Below are positions 2,409 to 19,383 of a DNA stretch of 64,000 nucleotides, one piece after another (within the stretch, counting starts at the first letter, position 1; each line of letters opens with the position of its first letter). The position numbers and the translations under genes are program-made. The notes beneath the pieces are model-generated. The model searched no databases. It was not told where the DNA came from and worked only from the letters and a program-made list of their open reading frames with translations. Origin of the DNA: Fibrobacter sp. UWB13 (GTDB taxonomy: Bacteria; Fibrobacterota; Fibrobacteria; Fibrobacterales; Fibrobacteraceae). The stretch is from positions 868,001 through 932,000 of the forward strand of contig NZ_FXAX01000001.1 in NCBI RefSeq assembly GCF_900177805.1. The letters run 5' to 3'.

Positions 2409-2444
2409 AAATCTACGTAGCTGTTGGCTGCGTAGATTTTTTTT
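2409..2444 (+). terminator. Terminator-like hairpin
   Basis: AAATCTACG pairs with CGTAGATTT around a 13-nt loop and is followed by a T run on the + strand. It lies about 110 nt after the stop of the unknown membrane protein and probably ends its transcript. It is the first of a series of stem-loops that continues to the tRNA. Confidence 0.7.
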
Positions 2445-2663
2445 ATGCATTGGAAATGCGCGGGGTAGCCAGATGGGCTGCGCTGGCTTCCCGATTGAGC
2501 ATCGGGGTAGCCAGATTGCCAAAACACTCATTTCATTTCGTGTTTTGCCCTCCGGGCTTGCTTGAGCTACGCTCAAGTCAAGGCTTAAAACCGGCTGTGT
2601 TCGCTACGCTCTCGCCGGTTTTAATCGAACTGACTTCGTCAGTTCTCACTGGACTCCGTTGAT
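2445..2663. other. Intergenic array of short perfect stem-loops
   Basis: Almost every base falls in a small dyad: 2468-2488 (AGCCAG/CTGGCT), 2490-2506 (CCCGAT/ATCGGG), 2521-2546 (AAAACAC/GTGTTTT), 2547-2557 (GCCC/GGGC), 2561-2577 (CTTGAG/CTCAAG), 2587-2622 (AAAACCGGC/GCCGGTTTT) and 2627-2645 (GAACTGAC/GTCAGTTC). Terminator-like hairpins flank the array on both sides. No convincing protein-coding frame is present. It may be a composite of intergenic repeats or a structured transcript. Confidence 0.6.
2461..2517 (-). repeat. Two copies of the tRNA-Pro 3' end
   Basis: The sequence CGGGGTAGCCAGAT (the T-arm/acceptor end of the tRNA read on the + strand) occurs at 2461-2474. It recurs with flanks, as ATCGGGGTAGCCAGATT, at 2501-2517. 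The 17-nt form is identical to 2701-2717 at the real tRNA gene. Such 3'-end copies are the usual footprint of site-specific integration into a tRNA gene or of decayed tRNA duplicates. No integrase gene lies nearby. Confidence 0.7.
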
Positions 2664-2702
2664 ATATGCAAAACGACCCCACAAGGGGGTCGTTTTGCAT
2701 AT
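2664..2702 (-). terminator. Terminator-like hairpin after tRNA-Pro
   Basis: A 17-bp perfect inverted repeat (2664-2680 with 2686-2702, 5-nt loop) abuts the tRNA 3' end. Its core is AAAACGACCCC...GGGGTCGTTTT, so an A tract, GC stem and T tract can be read in both directions. Confidence 0.75.
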
Positions 2703-18679: not shown

Positions 18680-19164
18680 GTCAACCCAATCCTATATTTA
18701 CACCTAAAATAAGCAGAATATTTCAAAATAGAGCAACCCGAAAGAATTTAGTAATGATTTATTTACTCCAAGTTCTAGTATTCCAAGTTGGAATATTAAA
18801 AGTGTTAATTAACAAGGATACTTACGGTTAAAAATTTGCAAGTATCCACATCTTCTATAGTTGAATATAGGCTTAAAATATCGAAAAAGTTCATTGTATA
18901 TAAAATAAATTTTAACATTTTAACAAACTAATCTCAACCAGCTTTCAACACCGACAAACACTGGGATTCGTGAAATACATCACACTTTTTCTTATTGGCA
19001 GATGTTCCAAATCGTTCCGAAAATTTCTAAAAAGCAATCTCAGCGACCACCATTTCTCTAAAAAATTTCAATCAAAAATTTACACCAACCCTCCCCTGCC
19101 CAAGCGTCGTATGTAAAAAGTCATCTTTCCGTAATGTAAACGTCCGTAAATATTTACGGCAACA

Positions 19165-19202
19165 AAAAAGCCTCCGGCTCTTTCGAGACCGGAGACTTTT
19201 TT
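19165..19202. terminator. Terminator-like hairpin
   Basis: CTCCGG-CTC pairs with GAG-ACCGGAG around TTTC (one bulge). It is flanked by an A tract before and TTTTTT after, so it is usable in both directions. Confidence 0.7.
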
Positions 19203-19350
19203 AATGCTTTTCGCATATGGCTTTTAGCCATTGGAAATGTAACTGGATCCTGCTCCTTCGAACCTAATTCAACTACGGCAGCAAGCTGCCTAGTTTCATA
19301 TATCACGACCTACGGTCGCTCAGGATGACGTAAGCAGCTCCGTAAGCAAA

Positions 19351-19383
19351 AAAGAACACTTGGTATCAACCAAGCGTTCTTTA
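19351..19383 (-). terminator. gdhA terminator
   Basis: On the minus strand AGAACGCTTGGT pairs with ACCAAGTGTTCT (one mismatch, 4-nt loop) and is followed by TTTTTT, about 100 nt after the gdhA stop. Confidence 0.8.

Follow-up and report, generated by a model that had tools for sequence, protein, structure and literature searches.

In E. coli, the tyrT-tyrV locus carries the RtT repeats (RF00391), annotated as the 171-nt ncRNA RttR, whose end falls exactly on the CCA that closes the tRNA 3'-end copy. The repeats read GGGGAAGGATGAGAACCTTCGACTAAGGTTCGA - D - GTTGCCACAGGCAAC - CCCGAAGGG - A - TAATCCTTCCCCCACCACCA, a layout made up of an inverted tRNA 3' end, a hairpin ending in GTTCGA, hairpins D and C, CCCGAAGGG, hairpin A, and AATC followed by the tRNA 3' end. 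A tandem GA motif that covaries has been described in RtT RNA (PMC7657543). An E. coli sRNA screen lists no phenotype for RttR (PMC4606813), and one REP-detection tool tags rttR as REP-containing (PMC12306157). RtT RNA is known from Rfam and E. coli annotation; a search of mostly non-subscription literature, which excludes the first E. coli tyrT papers, revealed no function for it and no account of these repeats beyond enteric RtT.

The window analyzed here, a 64,000-nt stretch of the Fibrobacter sp. UWB13 genome (G000), contains an array at 2409-2702 that very probably represents RtT-like tRNA 3'-end repeats. The array fills the spacer between an ORF ending at 2297 and a tRNA-Pro(TGG) gene on the minus strand. 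A sequence-only reading had described nine consecutive perfect stem-loops in this spacer; all nine named dyads are present and each is perfect, but they do not form nine separate hairpins, and on the minus (tRNA) strand they make up a unit followed by a second, truncated one. The spacer is structured well above chance. The plus strand folds at -143.3 kcal/mol compared with -87.9 +/- 4.8 for shuffled sequences (z = -11.4, 0/200), the minus strand has a z of -9.5 against shuffled sequence, and 35.4% of the spacer lies in perfect dyads of at least 6 bp, where 500 dinucleotide shuffles average 2.5% and reach 16% at most. The spacer is also the dyad-density peak of the whole window. What escaped that reading is the presence of tRNA copies within the array: the tRNA-Pro 3' end, CGGGGTAGCCAGAT on the plus strand, occurs at 2461-2474 and 2503-2516 in addition to the real one at 2703-2716. 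The AGCCAG and CCCGAT dyads do exist, but as parts of these two extra 3' ends.

The host gene, tRNA-Pro(TGG) at 2701-2776 on the minus strand (ARAGORN; Rfam RF00005, 63.7 bits), points its 3' end toward the array and does not encode CCA. Directly after it lies a symmetric, terminator-like hairpin with a 17-bp stem and a 5-nt loop (2664-2702, dyad analysis), which a simple terminator scan does not call because the T-run sits within the stem. Beyond this stem-loop, the tRNA strand shows first an inverted tRNA 3' end, next five hairpins in the order E, D, C, B, A, and last ATCTGGCTACCCCGA, which completes the tRNA 3' end. The inverted copy, or 5' arm (2646-2660), has decayed in the window; it still pairs in relatives, as GTAGCCA (L003), GGTAACCAGAT (L018), or, in Pro-CGG units, GCGAGAT. 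Hairpin E (2627-2645, dyad analysis) has the form GAACTGAC-GAA-GTCAGTTC, where the stem GAACTGAC includes the T-arm half of tRNA-Pro. Its right arm runs into GTCAGTTCGA (2625-2634), a direct copy of the T-stem 5' half and the start of the T-loop that is identical to positions 2717-2726 of the tRNA.

Hairpin D (2585-2624) has an 11-bp stem with an inner GA-GC-GTA-GC-GA motif, and hairpin C (2556-2584) consists of a core at 2561-2577, CTTGAGC-GTA-GCTCAAG, with outer complementary flanks. Hairpin B (2548-2556, CCCGGAGGG) is the best-conserved piece of the unit, CCCGNAGGG, and is also present in E. coli tyrT. Hairpin A (2520-2547) reads CAAAACAC-(GAAATGAAATGA)-GTGTTTTG. The unit is closed by the first tRNA 3' end copy, ATCTGGCTACCCCGAT (2501-2516), which has 0/14 mismatches to the host tRNA 3' end. 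Like the host gene, the 5' arm, the T-stem copy, hairpins E to A, and this closing copy all lie on the minus strand. Since tRNA-derived pieces flank D-C-B-A, the unit amounts to a copy of the 3' part of the tRNA whose T-loop is split (TTCGA | ATC...) by four hairpins, and hairpins D to A occupy the position expected of the T-loop. A second, truncated unit follows at 2460-2506 on the same strand, comprising the CCCGAT dyad (2490-2506), the AGCCAG dyad (2467-2488), and the second tRNA 3' end copy (2461-2474); genome G014 has a longer version of it. At the far edge, a plus-strand, terminator-like hairpin with a T8 run (2408-2444), downstream of the ORF at 1611-2297, bounds the array and probably does not belong to the unit.

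The unit covariance model matches the window only at 2514-2630 (G000:C1:870514-870630), so the hairpins at 19144-19383 and 8556, which had been taken as similar, are of another kind. The sequence at 19144-19383, together with the end of the downstream sequence of locus L039, belongs to a separate interspersed Fibrobacter repeat (GCTTTTCGCAT..GACTGGATCCTGCTCCTTCGAACCTAATTCAACTAC) that is common to another species and that the unit model does not match.

Corresponding units are found at other tRNA genes of the same genome. The tRNA-Pro(CGG) and tRNA-Ser(CGA) genes each have a unit built with their own T-arm and 3' end, GTGAGTTCGA...ATCTCGCTATTCCGA and GAGGGTTCGA...ATCCCTCTCTC, respectively, so that each of the Pro-TGG, Pro-CGG, and Ser-CGA units has the T-arm half and 3' end of its host tRNA. 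At these three main loci, covariance model R2 reaches 113, 103, and 92 bits. Weaker forms occur at Arg-TCT, Gly-CCC, and the Gly-GCC cluster, and weak R2 matches fall at the Gly-GCC cluster, at Gly-CCC, at one site upstream of tmRNA, and at one probable chance site (E 4.8). The remaining tRNAs of G000 mostly have a single plain terminator or none. Two further arrangements occur in this genome. Loci L076 and L092 (contig C5, tRNA-Glu-TTC) and L078 (tRNA-Glu-CTC) carry tandem terminator-like hairpins, each after a piece of the tRNA-Glu 3' end (GGGTATAAAAA), and form a second type of tRNA-end repeat. In addition, a similar hairpin cassette in reverse orientation, at L099:1501-1605 (G000:C1:795877-795981), splits a copy of the tmRNA 5' end (GGGGGTGCTCTGGTTT|...|TCGACAGG) that lies immediately upstream of the complete tmRNA gene.

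Across the genus, R2 matches 36 of 37 genomes. All match loci that were read lie at Pro-TGG, Pro-CGG, or Ser-CGA, except for two ending at a contig edge. In an identity profile of 49 genus units, the closing copy begins in the T-loop and follows the host tRNA 3' end. Outside the genus, R2 found no match in 23 other Fibrobacterota genomes. With a strict pattern, two tandem units appear in one further genus of the family, no others appear in the 100 phylum genomes scanned, and the reversed pattern found none; strict patterns overlook most Fibrobacter units and are not a measure of absence, and because of this insensitivity, absence elsewhere is only moderately supported. At locus L026 (G016:C5:73874-74305), tRNA-Pro(CGG) is followed by three nearly identical 162-bp units in tandem, a recent amplification. 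The T-loop slot of the Pro-CGG loci L037, L038, and L039, which lies 67-78 nt beyond the tRNA, is filled by another set of hairpins (GCGTGCGAGG...GGACGCCGAAGGCGTC), and at L039 this set lies beside the standard one, which indicates that cassettes can be swapped or joined.

The stems show strong evidence of constraint. In an alignment of 22 units, both partners vary in 26 of the 32 consensus pairs, 93.8% of cells are paired compared with 26-45% for slid partners, and the covariation score is 0.521 compared with 0.189 when shuffled. The D, C, and A stems vary freely and the tRNA-derived parts remain identical to the tRNA. Triloops on the tRNA strand are GNA in 76 cases, TNC in 3, and other in 29. 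Within the inner GA-NN-GNA-NN-GA motif, the NN pair is Watson-Crick in 81/94 cases, of types AC/GT, GC/GC, AT/AT, and GT/AC. The unit stems contain few G-U pairs, 24/2931, compared with 69/1695 in terminators downstream of tRNAs (p 2e-13) and 46/666 in tRNA stems (p 2e-18); stem finders favor matched arms, and the terminators were scored identically. At about 0.8% G-U, the stems are almost purely Watson-Crick, suggesting that the arms are matched at the DNA level too.

The E. coli layout matches the Fibrobacter order, and both have tandem units, the tandem GA motif, GNA loops, and CCCGNAGGG, just downstream of a tRNA gene on the same strand. The Fibrobacter units differ from E. coli RtT in following Pro, Ser, Gly, and Arg tRNAs rather than Tyr, in their longer D and A stems, in the strong hairpin between tRNA and unit, and in the lack of an encoded CCA. 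Rfam, at gathering and permissive thresholds, detects nothing but tRNA in the 64-kb window. In 31 relatives, the best RF00391 match reaches 37.6 bits and none exceeds the 45-bit gathering cut-off, and G000 has none at E up to 1; the best sub-threshold matches in Fibrobacter are Ser-CGA and Pro-CGG units, with E down to 1.6e-5 per genome. Conversely, R2 detects the E. coli repeats with weak but significant scores (21-26 bits; E from 4e-5 to 4e-4 over 15.5 kb). Because they fall below the RtT cut-off, the Fibrobacter units are best described as an RtT-like variant, not a member of RF00391 as curated. With the same architecture, the Fibrobacter units and E. coli RtT are likely homologous, the alternative being convergence.

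A pattern scan of bacterial genomes for GGTTCGA, CCCGAAGGGC, and AATCC with gaps extends the comparison; its counts are lower bounds and not taxon frequencies. The scan returned at least 134 distinct matches, and among the matches listed, 90 lie within 600 nt after a same-strand tRNA; the preceding tRNAs represent at least 18 isoacceptors. The 3' 12-mer of the unit's own tRNA is reproduced exactly in 58/90 and with at most one mismatch in 70/90 of the matches listed, compared with mismatches centering on 5 when another tRNA is used as a control. Own-3'-end matches among those listed include gammaproteobacteria, betaproteobacteria, and Verrucomicrobiota/Kiritimatiellae, and one Fibrobacter Ser-CGA unit in the scan has 4/14 mismatches to its tRNA 3' end. 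Identity to the tRNA starts at the T-loop, extends as far as the mature 3' end, and drops after it. Among the matches listed, 64/77 copies retain an encoded CCA, but none from Fibrobacter does, where CCA is not encoded. The hairpin order E-D-C-B-A is retained across phyla; the cross-phylum alignment (A3) is poor outside its anchors. In some gammaproteobacteria, the RtT model of Rfam already detects loci at Lys and Ser tRNAs. In loci L152-L271, loops of the CAGGA/CGGGA type, which resemble CsrA sites, occur in many D and A hairpins and not in C hairpins.

These observations refine the three explanations offered by the sequence-only reading. A structured RNA is the best supported of them: the unit is conserved throughout the genus, covaries very strongly, and resembles E. 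coli RtT. Nested intergenic repeats captures the tandem repetition of the unit but not its confinement to tRNA 3' ends, and a tRNA-processing leftover comes close to the truth insofar as every unit bears the 3' end of its own tRNA.

We lean slightly toward the array being the source of a tRNA-like trailer RNA produced by read-through, an interpretation drawn from sequence comparison; the RNA mechanism that would generate it is evenly poised between right and wrong. RNA polymerase would pass the hairpin behind a strongly transcribed tRNA and produce a trailer, in which the 5' arm or the T-stem half would pair with the copied 3' end to give a tRNA-like acceptor/T helix, with the hairpins standing in for its T-loop. 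The tRNA maturation enzymes would then cut the 3' end of this pseudo-tRNA and free a stable trailer RNA. Such an RNA may buffer tRNA-processing enzymes or serve as their decoy, or it may have a regulatory role tied to transcription of the tRNA. An RNA reading is favored because the loops are strand-specific, the order is kept across phyla, the copies end at the tRNA maturation cut, and an RNA is annotated in E. coli. Counting against the mechanism are the strong hairpin that separates tRNA and unit in Fibrobacter, the decayed 5' arm of the window unit, and the scarcity of G-U pairs, which is odd for an RNA. The sub-cut-off RF00391 scores in Fibrobacter and the lack of a listed RttR phenotype in the E. 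coli screen also weigh against this explanation.

That same scarcity speaks for an origin in DNA processes alone, and such an origin, although rather unlikely, is the most substantial rival. Template switching primed by hairpins that snap back at stable GNA triloops would generate the inverted tRNA 3' ends, exchange with the tRNA gene by recombination would preserve the identity of the copies, and the unit would be made and maintained without RNA. Inverted and direct tRNA-end copies do alternate around the hairpins, and the G016 units attest to tandem amplification. The variant ATCTGGTTACCCC, present in both tRNA-Pro and unit in G010 (L018) and in the unit only in G005 (L005) and G020 (L007), likewise fits exchange between tRNA and unit, which its distribution makes possible. 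Against this, the triloops are strand-biased, with constant G and A and a variable middle base, which points to selection on one strand; the E-D-C-B-A order is preserved across phyla; and the copy stops at the mature tRNA 3' end. A different DNA-based explanation, that the units are relics or miniature forms of an integrative element inserting in tRNA T-loops and that the repeated 3' ends are attachment-site duplications, is improbable. Integrases that target tRNAs leave a break in the T-loop with sequence identity reaching the tRNA 3' end, and the break point and duplicated 3' end of the unit fit such sites, as does the interruption of the copied tmRNA 5' end in G000 by a like cassette at a similar site (TCGA|AA). 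However, G000 has only three Phage_integrase genes, none adjoining a unit-bearing tRNA, no IMG/VR contig carries the Pro-TGG or Pro-CGG sequence from T-loop to 3' end, the unit keeps to three isoacceptors throughout the genus and has hairpins that covary, and the matched tRNAs are many and diverse rather than one site per integrase. Separately, a phage-type integrase gene just upstream of three tRNA-Lys(CTT) genes (G000:C1:974519-975019) marks a possible integrated element.

Two simpler explanations fare worse still. That the array is a mere row of ordinary terminators after a tRNA is very improbable: terminator-like hairpins do stand after tRNA-Pro and at 2408-2444, and the tRNA-Glu loci of G000 have tandem terminator-like units, but hairpins E to A lack a T-run, come in a fixed order with GNA loops, and contain tRNA-specific sequence, and this tRNA-matched anatomy contradicts the terminator reading. 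The chance that the GGA-loop hairpins titrate CsrA as a sponge is smaller again and practically negligible. Read-through sRNAs behind E. coli rRNA operons are reported to bind CsrA (PMC8144298). Among the cross-phylum matches listed, the apical loop contains or adjoins GGA in 44/128 D and 41/102 A hairpins and seldom in C (4/79). In Fibrobacter, by contrast, the loops are mostly GAA, GCA, and AAA, and csrA is present in 0/19 genomes of the genus, compared with 7/12 other relatives searched. Without csrA, GGA loops cannot explain the window, and a CsrA sponge is ruled out there.

The trailer RNA reading concerns this array; a broader proposal, that several phyla share a common class of pseudo-tRNA elements behind tRNA genes that keep re-copying the 3' half of the host tRNA, so that the tRNA-derived parts remain identical to it while the stems change freely, is tentative and somewhat doubtful. 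If true, tRNA 3' ends would be subject to a copying process, acting alongside selection for a tRNA-like RNA that passes into tRNA maturation. The spread of the layout turns a single E. coli oddity into a comparative problem, namely what maintains a 3'-end mimic of tRNA, with freely changing stems, next to tRNA genes in such number, and the three tRNAs per genome in dozens of species provide natural replicates for separating RNA from DNA explanations.

Among other described systems, REP/BIME elements resemble the array as intergenic palindromes; the array differs in not being dispersed, with strong model matches in G000 only at tRNAs, and in its tRNA-specific parts. The RrA, RrB, and RrF sRNAs, which lie between the dual terminators of E. 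coli rRNA operons, are not described in the abstract of that report (PMC8144298) as carrying a copy of the upstream RNA 3' end, and are not known to have the structure of the array. Compared with tRNA attachment sites, the array has no integrase or cargo, has conserved, covarying hairpins, and keeps its place across the genus. RtT remains the closest counterpart: it was known before, mainly from gut bacteria, and what is new here is the breadth, spanning several phyla and many tRNAs, and the tRNA-specific copying.
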